Assembly: GCA_030681265.1 (NCBI GenBank)
Contig: JAUXXD010000191.1
Coordinates: 1-50,300, forward strand
Origin: Candidatus Didemnitutus sp.
GTDB taxonomy: Bacteria > Verrucomicrobiota > Verrucomicrobiia > Opitutales > Opitutaceae
Direction of reading: 5' to 3'
DNA length: 50,300 nucleotides
Positions 12,454 to 37,195 of the stretch are shown piece by piece. The translations under genes and the position numbers were made by a program. Within the stretch, counting starts at the first letter, position 1. The number at the start of each line of letters is the position of its first letter. The notes under the pieces were generated by a model that made no database searches, was not told where the DNA came from, and saw nothing but the letters and a program-made list of their open reading frames with translations.

Positions 12454-12648
12454 ACCTTGCTCTATACGCCCGCGCCAGTAGGCGCGTCGAGTCCACACCG
12501 TGATTTCACCAACCCACGCGCATCATATGACAATTGATGGTGATTCAGCCTGTGCGAACTCCGGTAAGTTCACATCCGACAGAAAGATTATTCACCAACC
12601 CCCAACGCGACGTCACTAGACCACGCCTGGCGCGCCGCTCTCGAAGCT
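12454..12648. promoter_or_regulatory. Divergent hyp / hydrogenase promoter region
   Basis: This 195-base gap must carry promoters for both operons. It includes a weak FNR-like sequence, ttgat-ggtg-attca (12534-12547, two mismatches to the FNR consensus), and the inverted repeat gaact (12556-12560) with agttc (12567-12571). No convincing sigma-54 -24/-12 element was found. Specific regulator assignments are not possible. Confidence 0.4.
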
Positions 12649-13794: not shown

Positions 13795-13811
13795 ACGCGA
13801 GGAACCCACTC

Positions 13812-15530
13812 ATGAGCACCCGAATTGTAGTAGATCCTGTCACCCGCATCGAAGGCCATCTCCGCATCGAAGCGGAAATCAAGGACGGCAAGATCGTCGA
13901 TGCCTGGAGCGCCGGCACGATGGTGCGCGGCCTCGAAATCATCCTGAAGGGCCGCGATCCGCGCGACGCGTGGGCATTCTGCGAGCGCGTCTGCGGCGTG
14001 TGCACCACGGTGCACGCGCTGGCATCCGTGCGCGCGGTGGAAGATGCCGTCGACATCCGCATCCCGCCCAATGCCGAGTTGATCCGGAACATCATGTTCT
14101 GCACCCAATACATCCATGATCACGTGGTGCATTTCTATCATCTGCACGCGCTGGACTGGGTGGATGTGGTCAGCGCCTTGAAGGCCGATCCCGTCGCCAC
14201 GTCGCAACTGGCCCAGAAAGTCTCCAAGTGGCCGAAGAGTTCGCCGGGTTACTTCAGTGACCTGCAGAAGCGGCTGACGAAGTTCGTCGAGAGCGGCCAG
14301 CTGGGCATCTTTGCCAACGGCTATTGGGGCCACCCGGCCTACAAGCTGCCGCCCGAAGCCAACCTGATGGCGGTGGCGCATTATCTCGAGGCGCTGGAGT
14401 GGCAGAAGGAGATCGTGAAGATCCACACCATCTTCGGAGGGAAGAACCCGCACCCGAACTACCTCGTCGGCGGCGCGCCCTGCTCGATCAACCTCGACGA
14501 AGCCAATGCGATCAACGCCGAGCGTCTCGCCTTCGTCGGTCAGGCTTTGCAGCGCGGTCTCGAATTCGTGGAGCAGGTCTACATTCCCGACGTGCTCGCG
14601 GTGGCGCCCTTCTACCTCGATTGGGCGGGCATCGGCGGCGGGCTCGAGAACTATCTCTGTTACGGCGATCTGCCGACGAACGGCTTCGCCGACCTCAAGA
14701 GCTTCAAGTTCCCGCGCGGTGCGATCCTCGGCCGCAATCTCAACGAAGTGCACGCCGTTGATCCGAAGGATGACACGGGCGTGCAGGAGTTCATCGACCA
14801 CTCGTGGTATGAATATTCCGGGGAGAAGGGCGGGCTGCATCCGTGGGCCGGCGAGACCAACCTGAAATATTCCGGGCCAAAGCCGCCTTATCAGCACCTC
14901 GACGTGGACAAGAAATACAGCTGGCTGAAGACGCCGCGCTGGAAGGGCCACGCGATGGAAGTCGGACCGCTCGCACGCATGCTGGTCGGTTACGCCGCGG
15001 GGAATCACGACATCAAGGAAGTGGTCACGGAAACGCTCGGTGCGCTGCAAGCGCCGGCTTCCGTCTTGTTCTCGACGCTCGGCCGGACGGCGGCGCGCGC
15101 GATCGAATCGCGGCTCGCGGCGCATTGGGGCATCGAGTTCTTCGACCAACTGCTCGCCAACATCAAGGCGGGCGACACGCGCACGTTTACCAAAGAGCGT
15201 TGGGAACCCTCGACGTGGCCGAAAGAGGCGCGGGGCGTCGGTTGCAGCGAAGCGCCGCGGGGTGCGCTGGCGCACTGGATCGTCATTAAGGACAAGAAGA
15301 TTGCGAACTACCAACTGGTGGTTCCGAGCACTTGGAACGCCTCGCCGCGCGACGGCAAGGGCCAGCGCTCCGCCTACGAGGCTTCGCTCATTGGCACCCC
15401 GGTGCACGATCCGCAACAGCCGCTCGAAATCATCCGCACCATTCACTCCTTCGATCCGTGTCTCGCCTGCGCTGTCCATCTCTATGAGGACAGCAAGGAA
15501 ATCGCGCGGCACGAATTGGTGGTGAAATAA
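13812..15530 (+). CDS. hupL: NiFe hydrogenase large subunit
   Basis: This is the catalytic subunit splitting H2 at the NiFe site. Its four nickel-binding cysteines are in ERVCGVC (C61, C64) and DPCLACAVH (C550, C553). Maturation should cut after H556, removing a 16-residue tail that begins LYEDSKE. Its 572-residue length is normal. A clear Shine-Dalgarno gagga precedes the ATG. It is followed by the cytochrome b gene 12 bases later, so electrons are expected to reach the quinone pool. Confidence 0.96.
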
Positions 15531-15542
15531 CCGGAGGCCATC

Positions 15543-16304
15543 ATGGAACCCTCACGCGAATACAAACGGGTCTATGTGTGGGAACAGCCCGTGCGCTGGT
15601 TCCACTGGATCAATGCGGCCTGTGTCATCGTGCTCGGTGTTACCGGCTACCTGATCGCCCATCCGTTCGCCCTTTTGAGTGCGGACGAGGCATCCTTCGG
15701 CTACTGGGTGGGCACGAATCGATTCATCCACTTCCTGACCGCTTATGTTTTTGTCGGAAATTTCGGGTTCCGACTCTACTGGGCGTTTGTCGGCAACAAA
15801 TATGCGCGCTGGCGCAACTTTCTGCCGCTCCGACGGTGGCAACTACGGCAAGCGCGCGACGTGCTGAAGGTCGACATCCTCCAGTCGAGCGACAAGGTCG
15901 TGCACACGCTCGGACACAATTCGGTGGCGTATTTCACCTACTTCGGCACGGCGCTGTTGACCCTGTTCATGATTTTCTCGGGCTATGCACTCTACGCGCC
16001 GACCAGCGAGGCTTGGTTTCCCCAGCTCTTCAACTGGATGATGCCACTCTTCGGCAGTGAGCAAAACCTGCGCCTCTTCCATTATGCCGGGCTGTGGTTC
16101 TTCGCCGTCTTCATCGTCATCCACGTTTACCTCTGCTTCTACCACGACTATGTCGAAGGGCACGGCGTGCTGCTGTCGATCGTCGGCGGCTGGAAGTTCA
16201 TGGAAAAGCGGAAAGCGGAGGCTGAAGAGGCCTCGGGAATTTCGGAGTTCGTTGTTGAGCCGAAACGTTCGGCGACAGATGCCGCTAAACGGGACTTACC
16301 CTAA
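15543..16304 (+). CDS. hupC: Ni/Fe-hydrogenase b-type cytochrome
   Basis: This membrane diheme cytochrome b anchors the hydrogenase and reduces quinone. The 253 residues contain four hydrophobic segments (about 23-43, 60-80, 130-152, 185-207). Conserved histidines include RWFHWIN near the N-terminus and FHYAGLWFFAVFIVIHVY in helix 4. A strong ribosome-binding site (ggagg, 15533-15537) precedes the ATG. The C-terminal 30 residues are charged and cytoplasmic. It abuts the protease gene, whose ATG directly follows its stop. Confidence 0.93.
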   Translation: MEPSREYKRVYVWEQPVRWFHWINAACVIVLGVTGYLIAHPFALLSADEASFGYWVGTNRFIHFLTAYVFVGNFGFRLYWAFVGNKYARWRNFLPLRRWQLRQARDVLKVDILQSSDKVVHTLGHNSVAYFTYFGTALLTLFMIFSGYALYAPTSEAWFPQLFNWMMPLFGSEQNLRLFHYAGLWFFAVFIVIHVYLCFYHDYVEGHGVLLSIVGGWKFMEKRKAEAEEASGISEFVVEPKRSATDAAKRDLP

Positions 16305-17873: not shown

Positions 17874-18656
17874 ATGAGCACACAACCAAGCCGGACCAAG
17901 AGCACATTAATTTTCGGAGGAGCCGCCATCTGGGGACTTCTTCTCGTCTCCTGCGTGGTGACGAGCCGCACCATGGTGGCACCGCCATCCATCCCTGGAG
18001 CCACGTTTGTAGGATCCGGCAAATGCGCGTCATGCCATGAGGAGGTCTCGCACAGCTTTAGCGATGCGACGCACGCGAAGTTGATCGCCAAAGGCGACAA
18101 CGGCAATGAAATGATCGGCTGCGAATCCTGTCACGGCCCAGGCTCGCTGCACGTCAAGTCCGGCGGTAGCTTCGGCACCATCCTCAATCCGAACAAGTCG
18201 CCGGAGACTTGCTTCCAATGTCACACCGAAAAGCGCGGCGAGTTCAGCTTGCCCTCCACGCACGCAGTGCTCGCGGGCAAGATGACCTGCTCGGACTGCC
18301 ATGACTCGCACAAGGGTGACTCCGTCATCGGCGGCGGCACCAACATGGCCTCGATGAACGAGACCTGCCTCAAGTGCCACCAGGCGCAAATGGGCCCGTA
18401 TGCGTTTGAACACGAAGCCACGCGCGACGGCTGCGTCGTCTGCCACAGTCCGCACGGCTCGGTCAACGCCCGCATGCTCAAGTCCACCAACGCCAACCTC
18501 TGTCTGCAATGCCACGCGCAAACGCAGACCGCCCCCGGCGTCTACACCATCGGCGGCCGCGACCATGCCGGCTCGATGCTCCGCGGCACCTGCTGGGTCG
18601 CCGGATGCCATGAAGGGGTCCACGGCTCTCACGTGAACAACTCCCTCCGCTTCTAA
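17874..18656 (+). CDS. MtrA/DmsE-like periplasmic multiheme cytochrome c, eight heme sites
   Basis: This is predicted to form the heme wire inside the adjacent outer-membrane barrel. The 260 residues contain seven CxxCH motifs (CASCH, CESCH, CFQCH, CSDCH, CLKCH, CVVCH, CLQCH). An eighth, atypical CX4CH (CWVAGCH) lies near the C-terminus. MtrA and DmsE have ten hemes and are longer, while Geobacter periplasmic Oma-type partners have about eight. The N-terminal hydrophobic helix ends LLVSC, which could be a lipoprotein signal. The MtrB-like gene follows 25 bases downstream. No cell-surface partner cytochrome is encoded nearby. Confidence 0.85.
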   Translation: MSTQPSRTKSTLIFGGAAIWGLLLVSCVVTSRTMVAPPSIPGATFVGSGKCASCHEEVSHSFSDATHAKLIAKGDNGNEMIGCESCHGPGSLHVKSGGSFGTILNPNKSPETCFQCHTEKRGEFSLPSTHAVLAGKMTCSDCHDSHKGDSVIGGGTNMASMNETCLKCHQAQMGPYAFEHEATRDGCVVCHSPHGSVNARMLKSTNANLCLQCHAQTQTAPGVYTIGGRDHAGSMLRGTCWVAGCHEGVHGSHVNNSLRF

Positions 18657-18681: not shown

Positions 18682-20796
18682 ATGAATATCCAAACCATTA
18701 AGAATTCTATCACCCGGCGGAGCTTGCTCTTGCTGGTCGCCGCAGGGTTCGCCTGCACGGCCGTTGCGCAAGAAAACAGCATCACCTTCGGTCTCGGTAA
18801 CGCTCAGCTCAAAGGCGACATCGCCCGCGGGCAAAATATGCTGCATGTCGAAGACCGCATGAATGCCGGCATTGAAGAGTTGTTCTTCACCAAAGCCATC
18901 AACGACAATACGACCTTCACGCTCGAAGCGAAGGCGTTCGACTTCGACTACCTGATCGACCTCAAACTCGTGAAGGAAGGGGTCGGTTACATCAGCGCGG
19001 GCTACAAACAAAACCGCTACTGGTATGACGGTTCGGGCGCGTTCTTCCTTCCCCGCGCAGCGATGGTCACGCTTTATCCGGAAGAGCTCTATCTCGACCG
19101 CGGTAACTTGTGGCTCGAACTCGGACGCACGCTATCGGAGCACACCAACTTCGTGTTGCGCTACGATCTCTACACCCGCGAAGGGAAGAAGGACTCCCTG
19201 GTCCTCGGCGAAGTGACTGTTCCGGTCACCGCGACCAGTCTGGCGGGGGCGCGCGGCATCATCCCTGCGTTCCGCCAGATCGACGAGCGCCGCCACGTCG
19301 CCAAAGCTACGGTCACCACCGGCAACGACAAGGCCACCTACAAATTCTCGGGCATGATCGATAGCGGGGAGATGAACAACAGCCTCAACGTGCGCCGCCG
19401 CTATCTGGAAGTTGCGACTCCCCCGGCCCGCAATCCGGATCGCCTCTTCACCCATAAGGACAAGTCAGAATTCGATATCTACTCCTTCTACGCCGCCGCG
19501 CAAAACAAGATCAACGAGCGCATGACCCTGAATGCGGCCATCTCGCGCACGACGATCGACAATGTCCTCCACGGCACCCGCATCTACGGCCTGCCCGCGA
19601 GCTACGATCCCGTTTTCGATGCGGCCTATGCCAATCGCCAACAACGGGACGAAGGCTTCAAGTCCATCCACGGTGATGTGCAAAGCACGCAACATGTCGG
19701 CACGGTGAACTTCGTGGTTCGCCCGAACAAGGACTGGACCATGCTCGCGGTGGTTCGGCTCGAACGCTTCTCTACGAAAGCGGACGCAGAATATGCGGAG
19801 ACGAATAATCCGACGCCAACTGGCAACGCGACGCTTCTCCTCATCACCGAAGAAATCGGCGTGCATACCGCCAAGAAGCAGAACAATTCGACCGAAAGTT
19901 TCGAAGTTCGCTACAACGGCATCAAAAACGTCGCGCTCAACGCCAAGGCCGAATTCGAGCAGACTTCCGGCAAGATTGAGGAACTGCAAATTGTCGAACC
20001 CGGCATTTTGAACACCATCCGCATCCAGCGGAACGGCGACTTCGACGTCAGCGGTCACAAGTATTCCTTCACCGCCAACTGGTATCCGCGCGCCGGCACC
20101 ACCATTGCGGCGCAAGTTTACAACAAAGTTCGCAAACACGGTTACGGCGTCACGATCGACAACACGCCGAACACCTCCGGAAACCGCTACCCGGGTTATC
20201 CGACGGACTTCGATACGGAAGTGAACGACATGAACGTCCGGCTCAGCTGGCGCGTCGCGCATAACCTGCGCCTCGTCACCCGCTACGACTACATGGAAAC
20301 GACGAATGACTTCGGTGCCGAAGGGGCCGGCTTCGGTCAGGCCTCGAAGCTCGAAAGCCAGATCATCAGCCAGACCATCACCTGGAACCCGACCGCTCGG
20401 TTGTTCATCCAAGGCAACGTCAACGTCGTCCGCGACAACATCAAAACGCCCTTCACCAACCTGACGGGCAACGCCGCCGGCATCACCAGCGATACCCACA
20501 ACGATTACACTAACGTGTCGGTCAATGCGGGCTACGCGCTCGATGACCAAAGCGACTTGCTCATCGTTGCGTCGCAATACCGGGCCACCAACTACATGCC
20601 GACGGACTTCCGTTCGATGTCCTACGGCACGGACGCGAAGACGCAGCAAGCCTCGGCGACTTACACCCGCAGCTTGAATGCGCGCACGAAGCTTTCGCTC
20701 AAGTATACCTACGCGAAGCACGAAGAACCCTCCTCCGGTGGTTTCTCCGATTACGATGCGCACCTCATCTACGGCAAACTTCAGTATCGCTTCTAA
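18682..20796 (+). CDS. MtrB/PioB-like outer-membrane beta-barrel
   Basis: The 704-residue protein has a cleavable signal peptide ending AVAQ (about residue 30), followed by alternating polar and aromatic beta-strand sequence throughout. It ends in LQYRF, the terminal aromatic residue used for outer-membrane insertion. Size and pairing with a multiheme cytochrome match the MtrB/PioB porins that sheath a cytochrome across the outer membrane. A Shine-Dalgarno aagagg lies eight bases before ATG 18682. The family assignment rests mainly on context and overall pattern, as barrel sequences diverge quickly. Confidence 0.82.
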   Translation: MNIQTIKNSITRRSLLLLVAAGFACTAVAQENSITFGLGNAQLKGDIARGQNMLHVEDRMNAGIEELFFTKAINDNTTFTLEAKAFDFDYLIDLKLVKEGVGYISAGYKQNRYWYDGSGAFFLPRAAMVTLYPEELYLDRGNLWLELGRTLSEHTNFVLRYDLYTREGKKDSLVLGEVTVPVTATSLAGARGIIPAFRQIDERRHVAKATVTTGNDKATYKFSGMIDSGEMNNSLNVRRRYLEVATPPARNPDRLFTHKDKSEFDIYSFYAAAQNKINERMTLNAAISRTTIDNVLHGTRIYGLPASYDPVFDAAYANRQQRDEGFKSIHGDVQSTQHVGTVNFVVRPNKDWTMLAVVRLERFSTKADAEYAETNNPTPTGNATLLLITEEIGVHTAKKQNNSTESFEVRYNGIKNVALNAKAEFEQTSGKIEELQIVEPGILNTIRIQRNGDFDVSGHKYSFTANWYPRAGTTIAAQVYNKVRKHGYGVTIDNTPNTSGNRYPGYPTDFDTEVNDMNVRLSWRVAHNLRLVTRYDYMETTNDFGAEGAGFGQASKLESQIISQTITWNPTARLFIQGNVNVVRDNIKTPFTNLTGNAAGITSDTHNDYTNVSVNAGYALDDQSDLLIVASQYRATNYMPTDFRSMSYGTDAKTQQASATYTRSLNARTKLSLKYTYAKHEEPSSGGFSDYDAHLIYGKLQYRF

Positions 20797-26433: not shown

Positions 26434-26784
26434 TCAGGGCGCTGCGGGTTTCTGCTCGGCGGGCACGTATTCGAGTTGGATCGGTCGCAGATAACCGAGG
26501 AGGCGAATCCCGAGATAAGCGGCGACCCACGCGAACAGGGAAAGGAACAGAATGAAAAACGGCGCTAGCAGGAGGGCGGTTACCAAACCTTTCACGCCCG
26601 TCACGTATTCCCCCGAGAGGGAGACAGTTTTCGCGCCGAAAAATGCCAGCACGCCGAAGCAAAGCATCAGCGGGAGAAACACGACGGTGTTCGCGAGCAA
26701 GACGAGTTTGAGCAGCGACCCCGCCTTAATCCGGCGCAAGAGGATCACTCTGACATTGGGCACGAGCGGGGTATTTTCGTTCAT
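26434..26784 (-). CDS. Small membrane protein of unknown function
   Basis: The 116-residue product has two long hydrophobic regions (about 22-50 and 62-100), a basic N-terminal segment (VILLRRIKAGSLLK) and a polar proline-rich tail. No family was recognised. It is probably cotranscribed with the secreted protein downstream on the same strand. Confidence 0.6.
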   Translation of the reverse strand: MNENTPLVPNVRVILLRRIKAGSLLKLVLLANTVVFLPLMLCFGVLAFFGAKTVSLSGEYVTGVKGLVTALLLAPFFILFLSLFAWVAAYLGIRLLGYLRPIQLEYVPAEQKPAAP

Positions 26785-26914
26785 AAATTTTTAGACTACC
26801 GATCAGAATTTCGCAGTCACCGTCTCAAGCCTACGGCTGGCTTGGCCCGCTGGGGAGGGAGTAAGGTGTGACGCGTGCGGAAATCAACGACGGAGTTTCC
26901 CCTGTTCAATTTGG

Positions 26915-26946
26915 CCAAGAAAAAACCCGCCTCGAAAGGCGGGTTT
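26915..26946 (-). terminator. Terminator of the NirK-like gene
   Basis: aaacccgcct (26923-26932) pairs with aggcgggttt (26937-26946) around a cgaa loop. On the minus strand the stem is followed by a T-run (complement of the A-run at 26919-26925). It lies 31 bases past the gene's stop. Confidence 0.85.
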
Positions 26947-26977
26947 GAGTGGGGGAGGAATTCTTTTTTTGCGTCGC

Positions 26978-28594
26978 TTACTCGACGATGATCACGCCTT
27001 CCATATACGGATGCGGCGTGCAGTAGTAGCTGTATTTGCCTTTTGCCGTGAGGACTTTGCTGAAGCGTTCGGCGTGCGCGAGCATCGGGGACGAGAAGTG
27101 ATCAGGGGCTTCGCTGGTGACGACGTCATGCACGCCGGAGAATTCACCTTTGAAGAATGCGAAGACGTCTTCGTTGACCCATTCGATTTCGGTGCCGGGT
27201 GGCACGACGGCGACTTTCGGGTAGTAGGAGTTGCCGATGATCTGGATGCGAAGTTTCTTCTGACCTTGCGGGAGAACGAAGGGATTCGAGAGGTCTTCGG
27301 TGCCGGGACGGAAGGGCGAGATCGTGCGGACGGATTTCTCACGGATAGCGTCCATTTCCGCGGCGGGGAACACAGGGCCGTCGGAGAGAATCGGGCCGGT
27401 GCGGGGAGCGTCTTTCTCAGCTTGGAGAATGCCGATGGCGCCGCGCGTGGTGCTGCCGAAGGCGTGCGTGACCATGAGGTAGGCGCCGTCATCCGGCGGG
27501 ACGCGGAAGTCGATGACCCACGAGTCGGATGGGCCGGCGGTGACGGTTTGGCCGCCGGTGAAGGTGTTGCCTTCGGTGGGCGTGCCTTGCCAGTAAGCGT
27601 AATCCCAGATGATGCCGACGAGGTGGAAGGTGGAGAGGAGATTCGGGCCGGCGTTGAGGAAGTAGATGCGGACGAAGTCGCCGGGGCGCGCCTTGATCGG
27701 GCTGTCGACGTAGCGGAAGAGTTTGCCATTGAACATGACGTAGGCGGCGCGGCCTTCGATGGCGTCTTTGCCGCTGCCGTAGAGTTCGTGTTGCAGCAGG
27801 TAGATTTCGAGGTCGGGGCCGCGGCCCATGACTTCATCCATCTTGAATTTCACGGTCTTCGGCTTGACGACGATCATGCCGTATTGGCCATTGAGCGTGT
27901 GCATCGGGATGGCGTGGCCGCCGGGTGCGCAGTGATACATGTAGACGCCGGGCGTATTGGCGCGGAAGGTGAACTTCTTGGTCTGGCCGGCGTCGATTCT
28001 GCCGAGGTATTTCGAAGTCTGGGTGTAGGCCGCGTGGATGGAAACGCCGTGGGGAATGCCGCCTTTGTTTTGCGCGGTGAACTCGATCACGTCGCCCTCG
28101 TCGCAGATGAGCGTCGGGCCGGGGATGGAATCGTTAACGGTGAAGCCGCTGTAAACAATGCCGTTGCCGAGGAACACATCGCCCTCTTCGAGCGTGATGG
28201 TGAATTTTTTGTCCGGCGTCGCGCCTTGGGGCATCGTGCTCGTTTCCCAAATACCGAGGGCCTTATCGCGATCGACGACATCCTGAAACGCACGCGCGAC
28301 GGGGGCAGGGGCCGTGGCGGGGGCGGGGGCTTGCGCAGCGGTGCCGCCGGCCTTGACGGTGGCGACGGCGTTGAGGAGGCGATCCTTGCCGTCCCACTCG
28401 GCGTTCTTGATCAGTGCCATCATTTCGGCGGCGTGGGCGGAGGGCTTGTCGCCCGTGACGAGGCGCAGTGCCATCGCCTGTTGGCAGGAGTCACACGCCT
28501 GCAGCACAGGCGCAATGAACAGCGCGGCGGCAACGCCGGCGACTGGAAGCAGGCGCAAGAGCGCGCGACCTAAGTGGGGGGATTTCATTTTCAT
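26978..28594 (-). CDS. NirK-like copper protein with additional C-terminal cupredoxin domain
   Basis: The 538-residue exported protein has a signal peptide, a short segment with CDSC (34-37) and an Ala/Pro linker. Two NirK-type cupredoxin domains follow (about 128-395), then a third cupredoxin domain (about 440-538). Type 1 copper ligands in domain 1 are H182, C222 and H232, but the axial position is Gln (Q237) where nitrite reductases have Met. Type 2 copper ligands H187, H221 and H377 are kept. Of the two catalytic residues, H324 is present but the Asp is Ser (S185 in PHGVSIHAA). Domain 3 has its own site (H489, C525, H528, M531). It is a copper-nitrite-reductase relative, but genuine nitrite reduction is doubtful. 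It is transcribed alone from a promoter with an FNR-like box. Confidence 0.8.
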   Translation of the reverse strand: MKMKSPHLGRALLRLLPVAGVAAALFIAPVLQACDSCQQAMALRLVTGDKPSAHAAEMMALIKNAEWDGKDRLLNAVATVKAGGTAAQAPAPATAPAPVARAFQDVVDRDKALGIWETSTMPQGATPDKKFTITLEEGDVFLGNGIVYSGFTVNDSIPGPTLICDEGDVIEFTAQNKGGIPHGVSIHAAYTQTSKYLGRIDAGQTKKFTFRANTPGVYMYHCAPGGHAIPMHTLNGQYGMIVVKPKTVKFKMDEVMGRGPDLEIYLLQHELYGSGKDAIEGRAAYVMFNGKLFRYVDSPIKARPGDFVRIYFLNAGPNLLSTFHLVGIIWDYAYWQGTPTEGNTFTGGQTVTAGPSDSWVIDFRVPPDDGAYLMVTHAFGSTTRGAIGILQAEKDAPRTGPILSDGPVFPAAEMDAIREKSVRTISPFRPGTEDLSNPFVLPQGQKKLRIQIIGNSYYPKVAVVPPGTEIEWVNEDVFAFFKGEFSGVHDVVTSEAPDHFSSPMLAHAERFSKVLTAKGKYSYYCTPHPYMEGVIIVE

Positions 28595-28679
28595 CGGAAT
28601 GGTTGGAGTGCGAAGCCGGTGGTTTGGAGAAATTTTCCGGCGATGCGGCAGAGCCTAGCAGGTCACGGCGGGAGAAACC

Positions 28680-28693
28680 TTGATATGCGTCAA
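28680..28693. promoter_or_regulatory. FNR/DNR-type binding site upstream of the NirK-like gene
   Basis: TTGAT-ATGC-GTCAA (ttgatatgcgtcaa) differs at one position from the FNR consensus TTGAT-N4-ATCAA and resembles NNR/DNR boxes. It is centred about 92 bases upstream of the start codon on the minus strand. This suggests control by oxygen or nitric oxide through a CRP/FNR-family regulator not encoded here. Confidence 0.55.
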
Positions 28694-28791
28694 CTCGCGG
28701 CGAGTTTTTCGAGCGAAATTTGCGCGTGTCTGACGCGGAGAGTGGAGCGTTGTGTGGCGCTATGCGCGTCTGTGCGCGATTGCCACGCAAT

Positions 28792-28811
28792 GTGGCGAGC
28801 GTGCTCGCCAC
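28792..28811. terminator. Perfect hairpin after the Gly/Cys/His-tailed gene
   Basis: gtggcgagc (28792-28800) and gctcgccac (28803-28811) form a 9-bp stem with a 2-base gap. It lies just downstream of the minus-strand operon end. No T-run follows, so termination is uncertain. Confidence 0.4.
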
Positions 28812-28842
28812 CTACCGGACTCGCGAGGGCTCGCGGGAAATA

Positions 28843-29376
28843 TTAACCGCCGCCGCATCCACCGCCGCCGCAACCCCCACCGTGCGAGTGTTCGTGCATC
28901 GGCCTCACGCCGCCGCCCATGCCGGTGCCGGGGTCGATGCCGACGCCGAGTTGATCGGCGAGTTCACAAATCTTTTGGTAGCACTCTTCGCGATCCATCC
29001 CGAGTGCGTGCGAAGCGAAAGTCTCGGCGTCTTCGTGCGAGGCGAACTCGCCGTAGTTGACGGTGACGATTTGGTAGAGCGCGAGGAGCGGCACGACGCT
29101 GAGTTGCGTCATGTAGATCGGATGCACGTAGAGCGTGAAGCCCTCTTCGGGACGCGCGCCGTTGGGCGCGGGGTAGGCGAATTCGCCCGGATTCAGGTGC
29201 GAACTGTCGAAGGCGAGTTCAACCGGATAGCGCACGACGGTGTGATCCTGCAGGATCGCTTGCAGTTCGGAGTAGCCGATGTGCGGGCCGTATTTTTCGA
29301 AAATCTCGGCGCCCTTCGCCGCCACGTGGGCGCTGAGGGAAACTTTGGCGTGGTCGGCGGTGAGTTGAGTGGCCAT
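28843..29376 (-). CDS. Protein of unknown function with Gly/Cys/His metal-binding-like tail
   Basis: The 177-residue soluble protein, start at ATG 29376, has no signal peptide. The body (about 1-150) is mixed alpha/beta with many aromatic residues (YGPHIGYSELQAIL, LYVHPIYMTQLSVV). The C-terminus is strikingly biased: PMHEHSHGGGCGGGGCGGG. Such His/Cys/Gly tails usually bind nickel, copper or zinc. It is the last gene of the cytochrome/ferredoxin/NrfD operon, 20 bases after the NrfD-like gene, so it may be an assembly or metal-handling factor for that complex. No family was recognised. Confidence 0.65.
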   Translation of the reverse strand: MATQLTADHAKVSLSAHVAAKGAEIFEKYGPHIGYSELQAILQDHTVVRYPVELAFDSSHLNPGEFAYPAPNGARPEEGFTLYVHPIYMTQLSVVPLLALYQIVTVNYGEFASHEDAETFASHALGMDREECYQKICELADQLGVGIDPGTGMGGGVRPMHEHSHGGGCGGGGCGGG

Positions 29377-29396
29377 GGCGTGGGAATGGCGGTGAC

Positions 29397-31133
29397 TCAG
29401 CGGGCGACGGGCGTCGCGACGGTTGCGTCGGTCTCGTCGCCTTGTGGCGCGATGTCGTGTTCGTTGGATTTCAGCATGCGGCCTTGGAGAATGGGCACCG
29501 CCATGCGGAGGAAGAGGGTATAGAGCAACAAGCCGAAGGCCCAGATGCCGAGGGACACGAGCGTCTCGTTCCATGTCGGACTGTATTCGACGATGGCACC
29601 GAGCGGTGTGGGAATGAAACCGGGAATGACGAGGCCCATACCTTTTTCAATCCAGATGCCGATGATGCAGAGCACGCAGGCGACATCGAGCCACTTCAAG
29701 CTGCGGCTCAGCGGCAGGACGAGAATGACGAGCGCAATGAGATTGAAACCGATGGCGGTCCAAATCCACGGCACGAGTGCATTGTGGCCGTGCAGCCCGA
29801 GGAACAGATATTGCGCGGAGGCGACGTGGAGGTTGCCGGTGTAGAATTCCTTGAAGACTTCGTTGGCGAGCAGGAAGACGTTAATGATCATCGAAACCTG
29901 CAAAATGCTGCGGAGCGTGAGCAGGGCCTTATCGGTGATCATCAGCCGCGTGTTCATGCGGTAGCGGAGCGTTTGCTCCACTTGTTGGAATTCAAGCAGG
30001 CAACGGAACGTGTCGCCTGGCATGCGCAGGACGGTGCCGGCTTCCTCGACGATGGCGCTCGCGAGGCGCGGGGCGTTGGTCAGACCGGAGAGTTCGCCAA
30101 ATTGTCCGCCGGGACCAGCGTTGCGGGTGACGCGGTAGCGTCCGTTTTCCTCGCGTTTCACCGTGACGCGCCCGTGCAGGACGAAGAACACGGAGTTGTC
30201 GCGCTCACCTTGGCGCAGCAGCAGATCGCCAGGGGAAACCGAAATCACGACGGCGTGCGCGAGCAAGCCTTCGCGATCACGCTGGGGCAGTGAATTGAGG
30301 CCGGGGAGGTGGGCGCCGAGAATATCGAGGTCGGCCATCGTCGCGGCGCGGCCGGGGGCGTCGCCTTTGTAGGGACGGGTAAAATCGACCTTGGTCGACG
30401 AGGCCGTGACGCGGCGGATAATTTGCAGGGCGAGAATAATGATCGCTGGGCCGGCGGAGAACGCGGAGGCGAGGAAACGCGGGCCGACGATGGCGGAATT
30501 CCAGAACGGGCGACCGCCGAGGCCGACATAGAGAAACGCGGTGACCGTGTGAATCGAGACAGCCCAGACAATCGCGATGAAGACGAAGGGAATGTAGAAC
30601 CACTTTGACGGCTTCTGGCTGCGATAGCGGCAATAGAGCAGGTAGCCGCAAATGTGAACGTTGAGCAAAAGGTAGCCGTTGAGCACGAGGACGTCCCAAC
30701 TGAGCATGGAGGCGGGGAAGTTGAGTTCACCGATGCCCGGTATGAGATGCCAGAAACGGTCGGGTCGTCCGAGGTCGACGGTCACGAACGCAAGACACAT
30801 GATGATGGCGGCGACGGCGAGCAGTTCGCCGAAGATCACCAGATCGTGCATCTCCTCGTTGTTGTAGATGTAGACGGGGATGACCAGCATCACGGCTGCG
30901 GCGGCGACGCCGACGAGGAAGGTGAAGTTCGAGATGTAGACGCCCCACGAGACTTCGTCGGTCATGCCGGTGACGGCGAGTCCGTGCACGAGTTGCTTCG
31001 CGTAGGCGTTGAGGCCAAAGAGGCAGACGATGGTCAGCACCGCCATCCAAGTGTAGTAGCGCCAATCGCCGACGAACGCGACGCGCGTGCAGCGACGGAT
31101 GAAGACGAGGTAGTCGCGGGTGGCGGTGATCAT
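29397..31133 (-). CDS. NrfD/PsrC-type quinone-reactive membrane subunit with inserted cyclic-nucleotide-binding domain
   Basis: The 578-residue protein starts with NrfD-family helices (about 25-45, 62-90, 98-120, 145-168, 180-205, 220-240). A soluble domain at about 268-395 has cNMP-binding features: VSPGDLLLRQGERDNSVFFV, then the phosphate-binding cassette GGQFGELSGLTNAPRLAS with the conserved Glu (347) and Arg (356). Membrane helices resume (about 405-430, 450-480, 490-510, 540-560). The reading frame is unbroken, so this is a true insertion rather than two genes. Its ATG overlaps the ferredoxin stop (ATGA). The membrane part should exchange electrons with quinone via the partner ferredoxin and cytochromes. 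Gating by a cyclic nucleotide is inferred. Confidence 0.88.
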   Translation of the reverse strand: MITATRDYLVFIRRCTRVAFVGDWRYYTWMAVLTIVCLFGLNAYAKQLVHGLAVTGMTDEVSWGVYISNFTFLVGVAAAAVMLVIPVYIYNNEEMHDLVIFGELLAVAAIIMCLAFVTVDLGRPDRFWHLIPGIGELNFPASMLSWDVLVLNGYLLLNVHICGYLLYCRYRSQKPSKWFYIPFVFIAIVWAVSIHTVTAFLYVGLGGRPFWNSAIVGPRFLASAFSAGPAIIILALQIIRRVTASSTKVDFTRPYKGDAPGRAATMADLDILGAHLPGLNSLPQRDREGLLAHAVVISVSPGDLLLRQGERDNSVFFVLHGRVTVKREENGRYRVTRNAGPGGQFGELSGLTNAPRLASAIVEEAGTVLRMPGDTFRCLLEFQQVEQTLRYRMNTRLMITDKALLTLRSILQVSMIINVFLLANEVFKEFYTGNLHVASAQYLFLGLHGHNALVPWIWTAIGFNLIALVILVLPLSRSLKWLDVACVLCIIGIWIEKGMGLVIPGFIPTPLGAIVEYSPTWNETLVSLGIWAFGLLLYTLFLRMAVPILQGRMLKSNEHDIAPQGDETDATVATPVAR

Positions 31134-32080
31134 TTGTCGAAATAGTAGAAAAACCGCGGCGAGGTCCCGAGTTCCTCCTTCAATTGGATGAACACGCGCT
31201 TTGTGCGCATGATGTAGGAAATCTCGCTTTCGGGATCGAGGATGTTGCCGAATTTGCGCGCGCCGACGGGACACACTTCGAGGCAGGCCGGGTAACGACC
31301 ATCGCGGGTGCGTTGCACGCAGAAGTGGCATTTTTCCATCACGCCTTGCTTGCGCGGGCGGTTGCCGAGGTAGGCCATGTTTTTATTGAGGCGTTCCTTG
31401 GGAATCTCGGGTTTGGCGAAATTGAACCGGCGCGCGAAGTAGGGGCAGGCGGCTTCGCAGTAGCGGCAACCGATGCACCAATCGTAATCGATCACCGTGA
31501 TGCCGTCGCTTTCCTGCCACGTGGCGTTGATCGGGCAGACCTTCACGCAGGGCGGATTGCGGCACTGCTGGCACTGGATTGGCATGTAGAAATGCCCTTT
31601 CTCCGGCACCGACTCGGGCGCGTAGTTGTGATCGCCCTTTTCCAAATCGAGCGTGCCGTGCGGCAGCTTCAACACGCGGATATATTGAATCTCCGGGTTG
31701 CGCGACTGGTTATTCTCCTCGACACAGGCGTGCACGCATTTGCGGCAACCGATGCAGCGCGTGAGATTGAGCGCGTAGACGAACTCGACGCCGTCCATCG
31801 GCTTGAGGTCGCGCACGTGTGGGCGCATGCCGTATTGGCGCTCGACGTCGTTTTCGATGCGAGTGAGGACTTTCGCCATCTCGTCCGGCGTCATCTCCTT
31901 GTAATACTTCTGCATGAACTCGTCGGCGGTGGCGAAGTCGCTGAGTTCGCGCAAAGGCGAGAGACTGGCGGCGAGTGCGCTCAGGCCGGCAAAAGCGGCG
32001 GTGGAGCGCAGGAAGCTGCGGCGCGAGAGATCGCGCGCGTCGGGCGGGGCGGGGAGGGTGTTTGGTTCGATGGGTGCCAT
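31130..32080 (-). CDS. Tat-exported four-cluster ferredoxin subunit (NrfC/DsrO/HybA-like)
   Basis: The 316-residue electron-transfer subunit has a Tat signal (DLSRRSFLRSTAAF, about 18-31) and four [4Fe-4S] cysteine groups: CIGCRKCVHAC, CQQCRNPPCVKVCP, CIGCRYCEAACP and CHFCVQRTRDGRYPACLEVC with CP. It should relay electrons between the NrfD-like quinone subunit and the tetraheme cytochrome on the periplasmic face. It is coupled by overlap to the NrfD-like gene and starts one base before the end of the tetraheme gene's intergenic space. Confidence 0.93.
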   Translation of the reverse strand: MAPIEPNTLPAPPDARDLSRRSFLRSTAAFAGLSALAASLSPLRELSDFATADEFMQKYYKEMTPDEMAKVLTRIENDVERQYGMRPHVRDLKPMDGVEFVYALNLTRCIGCRKCVHACVEENNQSRNPEIQYIRVLKLPHGTLDLEKGDHNYAPESVPEKGHFYMPIQCQQCRNPPCVKVCPINATWQESDGITVIDYDWCIGCRYCEAACPYFARRFNFAKPEIPKERLNKNMAYLGNRPRKQGVMEKCHFCVQRTRDGRYPACLEVCPVGARKFGNILDPESEISYIMRTKRVFIQLKEELGTSPRFFYYFDK

Positions 32081-32081
32081 G

Positions 32082-32735
32082 TCAGTGCGTGGGGGCTGAT
32101 TTTGGCGGTGATGGGTGGAGTGAATTCGGACCGGGGGCCGGTTTGCGCGACGGGATGCGCGGCGAGTGCGGGTTGTGGCAATTGACGCAATCGAGGCGAT
32201 GCGCCGGACCCTTCGAGCGATCCCAATAGCCGTTGGTGCGTCCGTGCGCGCCTGCTTCCCAGTCGTTGTAAGTCGGACCGTGGCAACTGCCGCACAGCGT
32301 CGAGCTCTCGGAGAATCTTAATTCGCGACCATCGCGAATGTAAAACGTCTCGCGATTATTCTCGTTATGGCAGTTGAAGCAGTGGTTGTTGCGATCATGC
32401 GAACCGTGACCGAGCACGATGTTGGCGTGTTCCTCCGGCACGATCACATGGTGGTTGGCGTCGAACTTGATCTGCGGTTTTACGCCGCGCTCATGGCACA
32501 GGTAGCAATCGAAGTCGGATACATCCTCTTTGTCCCGCACGAGGTCGGAGTAGGATTTGCGCGAGGCGGTCGTGTCGAGAAACGATGGATCGACCAGCGG
32601 AATGTCTGTGCGGAGGTTGGGCCGCCCCCACGTATTGGTGAGCAGCACGACCACCATGCCGAAAAACGACACCGTGACACCGGCGAGCACCCAATTGGTG
32701 CGTTTGACCGAGGAACCGGAGTGCGGGCGTTCCAT
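32082..32735 (-). CDS. Membrane-anchored tetraheme cytochrome c
   Basis: The 217 residues have one N-terminal membrane helix (about 14-34) and four heme motifs, CYLCH, CFNCH, CGSCH and CVNCH, with extra histidines (HGSHDRNNH) that can be distal ligands. The C-terminal tail is proline/serine-rich. Gene order cytochrome-ferredoxin-NrfD matches NrfBCD and Geobacter Cbc-type quinol:cytochrome complexes. No catalytic NrfA nitrite reductase is present. It is probably the exit for electrons from the NrfD complex to periplasmic cytochromes. Confidence 0.88.
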   Translation of the reverse strand: MERPHSGSSVKRTNWVLAGVTVSFFGMVVVLLTNTWGRPNLRTDIPLVDPSFLDTTASRKSYSDLVRDKEDVSDFDCYLCHERGVKPQIKFDANHHVIVPEEHANIVLGHGSHDRNNHCFNCHNENNRETFYIRDGRELRFSESSTLCGSCHGPTYNDWEAGAHGRTNGYWDRSKGPAHRLDCVNCHNPHSPRIPSRKPAPGPNSLHPSPPKSAPTH

Positions 32736-32758
32736 GGTGTGGTGGTGTGTGGGCGGAC

Positions 32759-33088
32759 TTACTTCTTCAACGTGCGCAGGTAAACGACAACAGCGTTGAT
32801 CTCCTCATCCGTGACTTCCTCGATGGCCTTCATCACGGTTTTGCCCGCCTCGGTTTTCACGCCGATCTTGACCGCGTTGAAGGCGGCTTCGTCGGTGAAC
32901 GACGCTTGGTAGGCGGCGTCGGTGAGATCTTTGATTTTGAGTTTCTTGCCCATCTTGGTGTCGCCCTTGCCGTCGGCACCGTGGCAGGACGAGCAGTGGT
33001 TGTTCCAGACGGCGGTGCCGTCGGCGGCGAACGAACTGGCGGCGAAGGCCAGCGCGGCAAACAGAGCAATAGCAGTGCGTGATTTCAT
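32759..33088 (-). CDS. Small periplasmic monoheme cytochrome c
   Basis: The 109-residue protein starts at ATG 33088 with signal peptide MKSRTAIALFAALAFAASSF. It has one heme site, CSSCHGADGK, and Met residues near residue 85. It is paralogous to the small cytochromes at 20835 and 37216. It is the first gene of the minus-strand NrfD-complex operon, divergent from the eleven-heme cytochrome. It is a likely soluble partner of that complex. Confidence 0.88.
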   Translation of the reverse strand: MKSRTAIALFAALAFAASSFAADGTAVWNNHCSSCHGADGKGDTKMGKKLKIKDLTDAAYQASFTDEAAFNAVKIGVKTEAGKTVMKAIEEVTDEEINAVVVYLRTLKK

Positions 33089-33148
33089 AGTAGAATAGCG
33101 TCGTGGTTGGCGTGGAGGGACGCGGTAACTATGCTGGAATCGGAGCGG

Positions 33149-33204
33149 ACCAACTACGAGCCGGTTGGTTATCACTGCGCATATCTTGTGCTCGTCGACA
33201 AGAT
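33149..33204. promoter_or_regulatory. Inverted repeats in the divergent cytochrome promoter
   Basis: Between the small cytochrome (minus) and the eleven-heme gene (plus) lie accaac (33149-33154) with gttggt (33164-33169) and atcttgt (33183-33189) with acaagat (33198-33204). These are plausible regulator sites controlling both operons. No regulator can be named. Confidence 0.4.
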
Positions 33205-33307
33205 TGCGCAGCGCGACACGCGTTAGACCAAGATACGCCGTGGGCTCGTCAACAGTTGCGCAGACAGGCGGGCGGTGATGCGGCATCATCGCCACCGAGG
33301 GAAAAAT

Positions 33308-35467
33308 ATGAACACGGTAACAATCCGGTGCAGGCTGGCGCAGGGTGCGCTGGTGGCGTTGTTCTTCGCGGCGGGAAGTATTTCCACTGCCCAAACCAAA
33401 TTTGAGGGGAAACCGCCGGCGGTGCCCAACAGCGAGTGCATGGATTGCCACGAAGCGGAATTCAAAGCGCGCAAGAAGGGCCAGCCGAAGGAGTGGGTCG
33501 GGATTCGCCCGGAGGCATTCGCCAGTTCCGCGCACGCCAAGTTGAACTGCGTGGATTGTCACAACACGATCACCGAGCCGGAGCACCCGCCGTCGTTGCC
33601 CAAGGTCAGTTGCGCGTCCTGTCACGAGGCGGCCGTCAAACAATTCGACCACTCGGTGCACGGTTTGCCGCGCAACGGCAGCAAGCCACCCGCGGCGACG
33701 TGCGCGTCGTGTCACGGCAAGAACCTCCACGAGGTGCTCCCCGCCAAGCACATCGATTCAGCGGTTTCGAAATTTAATCTCCTGAACACCTGCGCCAAGT
33801 GCCACGAGGATCCCGCCATCGTCGCGGGCATGGTGCACCCCAATCCGTCGGTGGTGGGCGATTTTCGCGACAGTATCCACGGGCACGGTCTCTACAAAAT
33901 GGGTCTGAAAGTGGCGCCGTCGTGCAACGACTGTCATGGCGTGCACGACATCAAGAGTTCCACTGATCTTACCTCGCACACACACAAGAGCCAGCTCTCC
34001 GCCACGTGCACCAACTGCCACGTCGGTGTCGAGAAGACCTTTAAGGCGAGCGTGCACGGCGCAGCGTTGATGAAGAATCCGGCGAAGGCGCCAGTCTGCA
34101 CTGATTGCCATTCGGCGCACCGCATCGAACGTCCGTCGAATGCGCACTTCAAGCAGACGAGCGACCGGAGCTGCGGCAAGTGCCACGACAAGCAGCTCAC
34201 CAACTACCACGAAACCTACCACGGCAAGGCGATGGCGCTCAACCGCCCCGGCTCCGCACCGGCGGTCGCGGCCTGCTACGATTGCCACGGTCACCATGAC
34301 GTCTTTCCGATTACCGACACGCGGGCAAGTTTGCATCAGGACAACATCGTGCAGACCTGCGCCGCATGCCACGCGGGAGCGAACGAGTCTTTCACGCAAT
34401 ACCAACCGCACGCCGATCCGTCCGACGGGGCGAACTACCCGTTGTTGAACGGCGTGTATTTGTTCATGACGACGCTGTTGCTCAGCGTGTTTTTTTTCTT
34501 CGGCCTGCACACGTTGTTCTGGGTTGGTCGGATGGTGATTAATTACCTGCGCGACCCCGCCGCTTTCCGTGCAGCGAAGGCCGCGGCGCATCACGACGCG
34601 GAAACCTACCGGCGTTTCACGCCGTTCGAGCGTTTTCTGCACATGCTCGTTGTGACGAGTTTCCTTATGCTGGTGATCACCGGCATGCCGCTGAAATTCT
34701 ATTACACCGCATGGGCAAAGGTGATGTTCAATTTCCTCGGCGGACCTGATTCTGCGCGCACGTTGCACCATTTGGCCGCGATTGTGACTTTCGCCTACTT
34801 CGCCTTGCACCTCGGCAGTCTGGCGATCAGCGCGTGGCAGAATCGCCGCGCCGTCTTCCATCCCGAAACGGGACGCTGCGAACTGCGCCGCGTCTGGGGC
34901 GTGCTGTTCGGCCCGGATTCGATGGCTCCGTCGTTCCAAGATCTGCGCGACTTGATCGCGCACGTGAAGTGGTTTTTCGGCAAAGGCGAGAAGCCGCAAT
35001 GGGACCGTTGGACGTATTGGGAACGCTTCGATTACCTCGCGGTGTTCTGGGGCGTGGCGATGATCGGCGTCTCCGGTCTTGTGCTCTGGTTCCCGGTGTT
35101 CTTCACGAAATTCCTGCCGGGTTGGACGATCAACATCGCGCACGTTATCCACTCCGATGAAGCGCTCCTCGCGGCGGGCTTCATCTTCACGTTCCACTTC
35201 TTTAATACGCATTTCCGCCTGGATCGCTTCCCGATGGACATGGTGATCTTCTCTGGTCGCATTTCAAAAACCGAAATGTTGCAGGAGCGGAAGAAGTGGT
35301 ATGACCGTCTCGTCGAGAGCGGGCGGCTCGAACAACACCGCGTCGCGCACGACGATTGGGAAACACGGCGCAGCCTTTACCGTGTGCTGGGCTTCGTGTT
35401 TGTGGGCACCGGCCTGCTGCTGCTCGGGTTGATGATTTATGCGTTCGTGACGCGACTCTCCCATTAG
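33308..35467 (+). CDS. Eleven-heme cytochrome c fused to b-type membrane cytochrome, CbcL-like
   Basis: The 719-residue protein has a signal peptide, then a periplasmic domain (about 30-375) with eleven CxxCH sites (CMDCH, CVDCH, CASCH twice, CAKCH, CNDCH, CTNCH, CTDCH, CGKCH, CYDCH, CAACH). The second half is membrane-embedded with helices near 385-410, 455-480, 490-515, 575-600, 615-640 and 690-712. It carries histidines typical of diheme b cytochromes (FERFLHMLVVT, HHLAAIVTFAYFALHLG, HSDEALLAAGFIFTFHFF). Geobacter CbcL has the same c-plus-b design and oxidises menaquinol for low-potential extracellular acceptors. ATG 33308 follows a gaggg ribosome site. The architecture is certain, but the role is inferred. 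Confidence 0.88.
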   Translation: MNTVTIRCRLAQGALVALFFAAGSISTAQTKFEGKPPAVPNSECMDCHEAEFKARKKGQPKEWVGIRPEAFASSAHAKLNCVDCHNTITEPEHPPSLPKVSCASCHEAAVKQFDHSVHGLPRNGSKPPAATCASCHGKNLHEVLPAKHIDSAVSKFNLLNTCAKCHEDPAIVAGMVHPNPSVVGDFRDSIHGHGLYKMGLKVAPSCNDCHGVHDIKSSTDLTSHTHKSQLSATCTNCHVGVEKTFKASVHGAALMKNPAKAPVCTDCHSAHRIERPSNAHFKQTSDRSCGKCHDKQLTNYHETYHGKAMALNRPGSAPAVAACYDCHGHHDVFPITDTRASLHQDNIVQTCAACHAGANESFTQYQPHADPSDGANYPLLNGVYLFMTTLLLSVFFFFGLHTLFWVGRMVINYLRDPAAFRAAKAAAHHDAETYRRFTPFERFLHMLVVTSFLMLVITGMPLKFYYTAWAKVMFNFLGGPDSARTLHHLAAIVTFAYFALHLGSLAISAWQNRRAVFHPETGRCELRRVWGVLFGPDSMAPSFQDLRDLIAHVKWFFGKGEKPQWDRWTYWERFDYLAVFWGVAMIGVSGLVLWFPVFFTKFLPGWTINIAHVIHSDEALLAAGFIFTFHFFNTHFRLDRFPMDMVIFSGRISKTEMLQERKKWYDRLVESGRLEQHRVAHDDWETRRSLYRVLGFVFVGTGLLLLGLMIYAFVTRLSH

Positions 35468-35650
35468 CAACGCAGCGCCTCGGCAGGATTGCGGCTCCTA
35501 AAGTCGGGCGTTAGTTTTTTTACTGAGTGAGGCGGCGCGCCGATCTTTTGGCCGCCGCGCTCAATGCGACCGCTAGTTAGCCGAAGAGAGTAGTGGGATA
35601 GTGCGCTGCGCACGGAGAATTTCCGCAGGGTGGCGCGCGATTTCCTTTCT

Positions 35651-37195
35651 ATGACTATGCAACGCAAGTTCCTTATTGCGCTCCTCGGCGGCATCGGGGC
35701 GGTCTATTTATCTGTCCAGTTCTTCCAATATCGCGCCAGCGATCGGGCGATCCGGGACATGGCGGCGGAGAATTTCGCGCTGGAAACGGAAAATCAGTGG
35801 CATTGGGTGCGCGCCCTCGAGGGCGCGACCGGCACGGCGATGCTTCATTCCATGCAGATGGGCGAAATGGCGCAGGTGCATGCGATGCTGGAGCAACAAC
35901 GAGAGGTGAAGGGCGTGCAGGAAATCTCCTTTTACGGCATTCGTGGCACCGTGGCCTTGTCCACTGATCGCGCGAACATCAAGAAACCGCTGCCCGAAGA
36001 ACTGCGCGAGCAGCTGCTCACGGAGCCGGTTGAGATCAAACGCCAGACGGAGACCTCATTTGAAATCTACAAATCGATGCCCGTGACCACGGGGTGTCTC
36101 GAATGTCACAGCAATTTCAAGAACCGGAAGGTTGGTGGGGTAATGGCCTTTCGCTACAGCACCGAGAGTTTGCAGCAGGCGCACGCGCAGTGGGAAGCGG
36201 TGGCGACGACGGTGAGCGAGCAAAACAAATGGAATGCGGCGATTACTTCGGCGGTGTTGATCGTCATTGTGAGCGGTTTGGTCTGGGTGCTAATCCGCGT
36301 GCTGGTGACCAAGCCTCTCATCGTGGTGACGGAGCACTTGACCGCGAACTCCCGGCAGGTGCGTCAGGTGGCGGACAGTATTGCGCAGGCCAGTGCGGTG
36401 ATTGCGGACGGCGCGAGCGAACAGGCGGCGGCGCTCGAAGAATCGAGTGCCTCGCTCCTCCAGATGACCACAACGGCCCACGAAAACTCGCACGCGGCCA
36501 CTGGAGTGGAAACGTGCATGCGCGATGAAGTGGCGCCGAATCTGCAGAAGATCCACGAGCTGACCGAGCGCGTGCAAAAAACGTTGTGCGAGTCCGTCGC
36601 TGCGGGAGCGCGCACCACGGAGGTGATCAAGGTGATTGATGAGATCGCATTTCAAACCAACATCCTTGCGCTCAACGCCGCAGTCGAAGCGGCGCGGGCG
36701 GGCGATGCCGGGCTCGGTTTTGCGGTAGTGGCGACAGAAGTGCGCAATCTTGCCCAGCGTTGCTCCGAAGCGGCGCACCATACGCAGGAGTTGGTGGAAA
36801 ATTCGCACAAGCATCTTTCGGCGACCGCCACGGATTTTGCGCGGGTCAGTGAGGCGATCCAAGAGAGCACAGTGCTGGGCGGAAAAGTTTCTCGCCTGAT
36901 GGCGGGCATCAGCAGCGCCAGCCGCGAGCAAGCACAAGGTTGCGAGCAAATCAGCGGTGCTGTGAGCCAGATCGATGCCGTCACCCAAGCTAATGCCGCC
37001 AACGCTGAGCAGAATGCAGCGGCGTCGATCGAATTGAACGGCGAAGCCGAAGCGCTCGGTCGTGCAGTGACGTCGTTACTCGTCCTTCTGGGCCTGGATG
37101 CGAAGAAGTGCGCAGTGCACTCCGCCACCAAGCCGCCGACTCATTTGGCTGTCCCGCCTGCGCAACCGGCCAAGCACGAACTGGCGATGCGCTAA
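35651..37195 (+). CDS. Methyl-accepting chemotaxis protein with periplasmic c-heme sensor
   Basis: The 514-residue chemoreceptor has a membrane helix near residues 8-27 and a periplasmic sensor (about 28-195) containing a single heme-binding motif, CLECH, within [12 protein letters not shown] second helix (about 205-228) and the cytoplasmic signalling coiled coil follow, with the conserved tip [21 protein letters not shown]. The sensor resembles DUF3365/c-type heme PAS-like domains that sense redox state or gases. ATG 35651 is preferred over GTG 35630. It follows the CbcL-like gene, suggesting movement towards electron acceptors. No che genes are in the window. Confidence 0.88.

Follow-up and report, generated by a model that had tools for sequence, protein, structure and literature searches.

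A cyclic-nucleotide-binding domain inserted in an NrfD-type quinone subunit of Verrucomicrobiota

Described systems and the protein of the window

The described proteins closest to the subunit studied here are ActC of alternative complex III and DsrP of the DsrMKJOP complex. ActC carries out quinone:cytochrome chemistry with an iron-sulphur partner on the P side. A cyclic-nucleotide-binding (cNMP) domain fused to an effector is known from the mycobacterial acetyltransferase Pat/Rv0998 and from the CNG, HCN and SthK channels, in which the domain lies at a terminus of the acetyltransferase or channel and cAMP acts directly on the effector. To our knowledge, second-messenger control of respiratory complexes is known only through gene expression, kinases or separate proteins. 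In Rhodococcus equi, the hydrogenase 3b cluster encodes a cNMP-domain protein beside the redox enzyme, as a separate protein not fused to NrfD (PMC13332983). For freshwater Verrucomicrobia, He et al. (2017) described an eight-haem periplasmic cytochrome with a large porin and proposed them for extracellular electron transfer; the main text of that paper leaves the inner-membrane step unspecified and contains neither NrfD nor cyclic (PMC5615132).

We analysed a window of 50,300 nucleotides from Candidatus Didemnitutus sp. (assembly GCA_030681265.1, contig JAUXXD010000191.1, positions 1 to 50,300). Like DsrP, as the review of NrfD-like subunits by Calisto and Pereira (2021) describes it, its NrfD-type protein has ten helices, regularly spaced quinone-site and most ion-path residues, and a DsrO-type ferredoxin (PMC8076601). 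The locus differs from DsrMKJOP in that its genome gave no dsrA match, no DsrMK was found among the neighbours scanned, and its cytochrome has four haem motifs, against three in DsrJ. Unlike Rv0998 and the channels, it carries the cNMP domain inserted inside an electron-transfer membrane subunit. Open-licence PMC full texts gave no description of NrfD with an inserted cNMP domain, the two being mentioned together only in unrelated clusters. They also gave nothing for DsrMKJOP with cyclic nucleotide-binding, for a cAMP-binding domain with NrfD, or for polysulfide reductase NrfD, cyclic nucleotide and Verrucomicrobi joined. In its main text, the DsrP review contains none of the words "cyclic", "nucleotide" and "inserted" (PMC8076601). 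The first-pass annotation knew of no respiratory complex described as regulated in this way, and we found no such description in open-licence papers. As far as these papers were searched, the parts are of known kinds and the combination is undescribed.

The gene lies on the minus strand at 29397-31133, with the ATG at 31133 and the stop at 29399-29397. It encodes 578 aa without an internal stop; a plus-strand reading contains stops and was ruled out. The first-pass annotation, made from the letters alone, had proposed a single unbroken frame with NrfD-like helices, a cNMP domain and further helices. The minus-strand frame from 31133 to 29397 agrees with this, as do Pfam, NCBIfam and AlphaFold2 for the order of the parts; the domain limits it had given (residues 268-395, nt 30332-29949) and its phosphate-binding cassette FGELSGLTNAPRLAS (residues 345-359, 30057-30101) were correct. 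Pfam matched only two families in the protein, NrfD at residues 54-250 (E 1.2e-37, 130.7 bits against a cut-off of 25.8) and cNMP_binding at residues 298-380 (E 1.8e-17, 63.5 bits against 27.5). NCBIfam DsrP matched the flanking parts in two stretches, with 414.4 bits against a cut-off of 350. A CRP/FNR transcription factor was ruled out, since there is no HTH and a transmembrane helix follows the cNMP domain from residue 401.

A full-length AlphaFold2 model (pLDDT 82.8, pTM 0.83), built from 61 window and locus sequences, shows ten long helices, the sixth of which is followed by a beta-roll domain. For the protein alone, a check proposed in the first-pass annotation, the model thus gives NrfD-type helices interrupted by a cNMP beta-roll, which sits between helices 216-243 and 401-431. 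Modelled alone, the inserted domain reached a pLDDT of 91.6. The best fold match of the membrane part is ActC (Z 33.2 over 369 aligned residues); PsrC (Z 18.7) and cytochrome bd subunits (Z up to 22) were also matched. The aligned ActC chains leave the inserted domain uncovered, and the partners in the window are a small ferredoxin and two cytochromes. The inserted part matched the cNMP domain of the MlotiK1 channel (Z 16.4), the cAMP-regulated acetyltransferase Rv0998 (Z 16.3), PKA and PKG. Run against solved structures, the domain profile, which the first-pass annotation had expected to identify a cNMP domain in the middle, found a multi-domain Toxoplasma protein first, then PKG, EPAC and PKA, and also CRP. 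Because both the profile and the fold match cNMP domains of solved structures, the assignment is not a matter of chance.

A family with and without the insert

Public bacterial genome contigs were scanned, and the best 80 of 559 relatives, ranked by their similarity to an insert form, were kept. A search of 57 related genomes added five loci, the window's own included, and seven duplicates were dropped. In this locus set (the best 80 of 559 relatives plus five), 55 loci bear the insert, 51 of them full-length and 4 cut by contig ends, with the window included, and 30 homologues lack it. The ratio in the scan itself (53:27) is biased, because the loci kept were those most similar to an insert form. 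The insert is 151-162 aa long, against 1-3 aa at the same place in the 30 homologues without it, and the site is constant in the 51 full-length loci, after residue 243 and before residue 397. The architecture that the first-pass annotation had suggested looking for in other genomes therefore exists there, and the insertion is a family trait, not a one-off. The same annotation had raised a frameshift separating two genes; the insertion also stands in a single open frame in 50 other full-length homologues from different genome records, so a frameshift or assembly error is very unlikely.

Over the N-terminal arm of the membrane part, the window protein is 67-91% identical to insert forms and 60-88% identical to non-insert forms of the locus set, and 28 of the 30 non-insert homologues fall at 79-88%. 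These 28 make natural plus/minus pairs with the insert forms. Of 387 evenly sampled genomes of the phylum, 5 carry an insert form and 12 others only a clear homologue without it (at least 50% identity over the N-terminal arm). None of the nine inspected homologues with less than 70% identity over this arm (L091, L092, L110-L116) has the insert, so a no-insert state outside the subfamily looks likely. Among the best 80 of 559 relatives, 48 of the 53 insert loci are labelled Verrucomicrobia or its subgroups; the others are labelled "bacterium" (L009, L035) or other phyla (L034, L040, L042). The last three, labelled Klebsiella or Proteobacteria, group with Verrucomicrobia rows in the trees. For two loci labelled Akkermansia muciniphila (L067, L068) the species label looks doubtful, and the insert-form protein at L028:2489-4687 runs on past the usual C-terminus by about 150 residues.

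The domain changes about 2.4 times as fast as the membrane arms, and its mean pairwise identity is 57.9%, against 84% and 80% for the arms. Among the 23 pairs whose membrane arms are at least 92% identical, the dN/dS of the domain was 0.05-0.33 (median 0.18). It was below 1 in all 1237 computable pairs of 1275, with a highest value of 0.8, many of these pairs being near saturation. Distances in the domain and in the membrane arms were correlated (Mantel r 0.60, 0 of 2000 permutations as high), so the two have mostly travelled together. These data indicate a conserved, selected family of NrfD subunits bearing a cNMP domain in Verrucomicrobiota.

In the tree of the membrane arms (NrfD only), insert and non-insert forms are interleaved, with at least 11 changes, and starred branches force at least 5 of them. 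In a bootstrap that had not settled, none of the 200 trees of the arms showed a single change. The NrfD plus DsrO tree, a quick tree whose long outgroup branches do not lie on one side, needed 11 changes, at least 6 of them forced. The trees make repeated loss or exchange of the insert likely; it is unproven, because the AU test keeps a single non-insert clade (p 0.215). M393, R396 and L397 are invariant in all 51 full insert forms of the locus set, and 28 of the 30 non-insert forms have Y397. Because the insert forms share R396/L397, repeated clean deletions would hardly restore Y397. We therefore prefer, as an unproven reading of the sequences, that two alleles may have been exchanged by homologous recombination. 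The coming and going of the insert on the trees is what an optional or partly dispensable module would give.

Operon, quinone site and orientation

The NrfD gene stands in an operon on the minus strand. A 4Fe-4S ferredoxin of the DsrO/QrcC/TtrB kind (31130-32080; Pfam, NCBIfam) precedes it, and the two genes overlap at an ATGA (ferredoxin stop, NrfD start), an arrangement that fits coupled genes of an operon. Twin-arginine motifs act as export signals, and the ferredoxin carries one (RRSFL, seen by eye), so it should face the periplasm. Upstream lie a tetrahaem c-type cytochrome with four CXXCH and a hydrophobic N-terminal stretch (32082-32735), identified by profile scan and motif count and without an NCBIfam match, and a monohaem c-type cytochrome found in the neighbour scan (32759-33088). 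On the other side, a conserved 177-aa protein with a Gly/Cys-rich C-terminus adjoins NrfD (28843-29376) and has no Pfam or NCBIfam match. The order cytochrome c, tetrahaem cytochrome, ferredoxin, NrfD and 177-aa protein recurs, and it is the same with or without the insert. In the 37 loci of at least 14 kb in the locus set, relatives of the tetrahaem cytochrome and of the ferredoxin occur in 37 of 37, and those of the monohaem cytochrome and the 177-aa protein in 36 each. The tie to a respiratory quinone subunit with a ferredoxin partner, as first proposed from the letters, is borne out. Rfam gave no match at gathering score over 26500-34000.

Two plus-strand genes of the window may encode the onward path. 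One is a multihaem cytochrome like the DmsE/decahaem family, below NCBIfam cut-offs, with 7 CXXCH and 1 CX4CH (17874-18656), a possible electron acceptor. It is paired with a putative outer-membrane porin of 704 aa (18682-20796), which ends in Phe, looks barrel-like by eye and has no Pfam or NCBIfam match. Relatives of the porin and multihaem proteins, the porins mostly at 22-38% identity, occur within the fetched flanks of 19 of the 37 long loci of the locus set (12/27 insert, 7/10 non-insert). By description only, the pair fits the cluster of freshwater Verrucomicrobia presented in the main text of PMC5615132. The NrfD module is a candidate inner-membrane donor for such porin-cytochrome systems of Verrucomicrobia.

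Other redox genes are found nearby. Divergent from the operon is a gene for a 730-aa protein with 11 CXXCH and a cytochrome b561-like membrane part (33275-35467, plus strand), relatives of which lie near 22 of the 37 long loci of the locus set. A methyl-accepting chemotaxis protein (35630-37195, plus strand) has one CXXCH in its sensor part, which suggests a covalently bound haem as a redox or gas sensor. Just downstream of the operon lies a copper nitrite-reductase-like gene with a C-terminal plastocyanin-type domain, below the NCBIfam cut-off (26978-28594, minus strand), and the same contig holds NiFe hydrogenase subunits with HypB/D/F-type maturation genes (7458-16304). This NirK-like protein and the NiFe hydrogenase were both rejected as partners, as neither has a relative in the 37 long loci of the locus set.

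The NrfD-like review lists, in its Table 2, the quinone-site (Tyr52, Asp106, Ser124, Asp129) and ion-path residues of DsrP1 (PMC8076601). We mapped these listed residues by fitted spacing, not direct alignment (+14, +18, +19, then +168 to +171 past the insert). By this spacing, the proposed quinone site corresponds to Y66, D120, S142 and D147 (+14, then +18), within transmembrane helices 1-6 (residues 24-243, 30405-31064), and all four are kept in every one of the 51 insert and 30 non-insert forms of the locus set. Counterparts on the N-side path would be T71, Y88, E103, Y154, H195 and T198, and on the P-side path R208, R219, S223, E425, H436 and K497, the last three in the final four transmembrane helices (residues 401-549, 29487-29933). 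They are kept in nearly all insert and non-insert forms of the locus set. Of the other DsrP1 residues in that list, Lys162 and Ser168 have no counterpart by spacing, Thr194 falls on S213, which is often Ala in relatives, and Arg152 was matched only with a shifted spacing.

The structural alignment with PsrC covers model residues 56-514, so model helices 2-9 should equal the eight common ones. The insert would then lie between TMH5 and TMH6, in the second bundle (R219/S223 to E425). The loops hold 15 Lys and Arg on the insert side and 3 on the opposite side. By the positive-inside rule the domain is therefore predicted to be cytoplasmic, on the other side of the membrane from the Tat-type ferredoxin. 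The linker into the domain (residues 244-261, 30351-30404) is poorly conserved (mean majority-residue fraction 0.35), whereas the exit into TMH6 is tight (0.84). At this exit, the junction from the C-helix to the transmembrane helix (residues 393-401, 29931-29957) holds the invariant M393, R396 and L397.

Ligand pocket, gating and alternatives

The inserted domain spans residues 262-396 (29946-30350), as delimited by profile, alignment and fold. F345, G346, E347, S349, R356 and A360 are invariant in all 53 domains of the locus set that reach the cassette, and position 359 is T, S or N in them. A Gly/Glu/Arg cassette holds the cyclic phosphate in PKA, PKG and CRP, with Glu and Arg holding the ribose and the cyclic phosphate in PKA and CRP. 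Only 17 of 135 domain columns are invariant among the 51 full sequences of the locus set, and two columns drawn at random would both be invariant with a probability of 0.015. The invariant cassette stands out because the rest of the domain diverges fast. The cNMP-type phosphate cassette of the first-pass annotation thus holds up. Because none of the 53 domains departs from the ligand-contacting Gly, Glu and Arg, binding of a cyclic nucleotide by the inserted domain is well supported at the level of sequence. The residue after R356, which we take to help discriminate cAMP from cGMP, varies among M, T, V, A, L, E and Q and is Leu in the window, so the ligand may differ between members. It is Thr in only 14 of the 51 full sequences, which suggests cAMP for the other members, the window included.

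The genome of the window (98.9% complete) encodes two class III cyclases. Two cNMP domains were found in it, the NrfD-borne one and a CRP/FNR-type regulator whose cassette, by eye, lacks the Glu/Arg pattern. In a relative (G010, 86% complete), the NrfD-borne domain was the only cNMP domain found, and 13 other relatives, with and without the insert, have 2-11 each. Cyclases occurred in 50 of 50 insert genomes and 25 of 27 non-insert genomes (77 of the scan's best 80 of 559 loci, with L050-L052 left out). They do not discriminate insert from non-insert forms, because they are nearly as common without the insert. The presence of cyclases permits a second-messenger link and does not prove it.

We read the protein as the membrane subunit of an NrfD/DsrP-kind quinone:cytochrome c oxidoreductase whose turnover a cyclic nucleotide, most likely cAMP, would gate on the cytoplasmic side (probability about 0.6). 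The structure of the gene, its predicted fold, the conservation of pocket and operon, the purifying selection and the cyclases of the genome are results; from them we infer the identity of the ligand, the gating, the direction of electron flow and the terminal acceptor. The electron path would connect the quinone pool with the periplasm by way of the P-side quinone site of NrfD, the exported ferredoxin and the tetrahaem and monohaem cytochromes, and would perhaps continue to outer-membrane multihaem carriers. The domain would hang in the cytoplasm between TMH5 and TMH6, the first two helices of the second four-helix bundle, which is the proposed seat of the P-side ion half-channel. From the C-helix the chain leads straight into TMH6 across the invariant junction. 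A bound ligand would shift the C-helix, and displacement of TMH6 may then alter ion coupling or the turnover of quinone. That the domain directly and allosterically controls electron flow is suggested by its predicted cytoplasmic position and its invariant junction with the transmembrane helix. Because close homologues lack the domain, the core reaction is probably independent of it.

An unlikely alternative, though the strongest of them, is that the cNMP fold senses another ligand, such as a cyclic dinucleotide or a redox or haem ligand as in the FNR/DNR type, and still regulates the complex. Many CRP/FNR-fold domains bind other ligands, structures of DNR and FNR are among the fold matches of the inserted domain, and the position after the cassette Arg varies between members. 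However, the cassette is complete and invariant, the closest profile matches after the Toxoplasma protein are PKG, EPAC and PKA, and the 17 columns invariant in the 51 full sequences of the locus set include neither Cys nor His. Somewhat less probable still is a docking or assembly element, used in oligomerisation or partner recruitment, in which the ligand has no effect on turnover. Such a role would agree with an insert that is optional among close homologues and an operon of identical make-up with and without it; a pure scaffold, however, would not need the invariant Glu/Arg pair or the invariant junction of C-helix and TMH6.

It is very improbable that the protein is the DsrP of a DsrMKJOP sulfite-reduction complex that acquired an extra domain. 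The NCBIfam DsrP score lies over the cut-off, DsrO is the best match of the ferredoxin, and the DsrP1 quinone and ion residues listed in the review are conserved (PMC8076601). Against this, the ferredoxin scores below the DsrO cut-off (173.6 against 200), the four-CXXCH cytochrome has no NCBIfam match, and no DsrM, DsrK or trihaem DsrJ is among the neighbouring genes scanned. No dsrA match was found in the genome of the window, and in none of nine genomes tested did a match exceed the cut-off. One relative (G027) has a dsrA-like pair (329 bits, cut-off 393) beside a separate NrfD without the insert, and its insert form is on another contig. Membership in DsrMKJOP was rejected on this gene context and the missing dsrA match. 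The dsrA-like pair and the separate NrfD gene (G027, contig C14, about 49585-57577), in a genome of the window's family, are a possible sulfur-metabolism cluster. Because the NCBIfam DsrP equivalog NF045798 accepts the window protein above its cut-off, although the genome gave no dsrA match, automated pipelines may misname the protein. A frameshift, chimera or decayed insertion deserves almost no weight, given 51 full-length open frames in the locus set (window included), purifying selection and a confident fold.

A bolder form of the gated-oxidoreductase reading, to which we give slightly less than even odds, would make it the first case of a cyclic nucleotide directly gating a respiratory quinone complex. 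In it, cAMP bound in the cytoplasm would mechanically change the ion half-channel or the quinone turnover of NrfD, a second-messenger valve of Verrucomicrobia on anaerobic or extracellular electron flow, and gated and ungated versions would be exchanged between lineages. The family offers a ready experiment in its close relatives with and without the domain, and the subunit is a candidate natural cyclic-nucleotide-gated redox protein for sensor engineering. A sensor built into the quinone subunit would link cell signalling directly to electron flow, and the cell may in this way switch an electron pathway directly by a second messenger.
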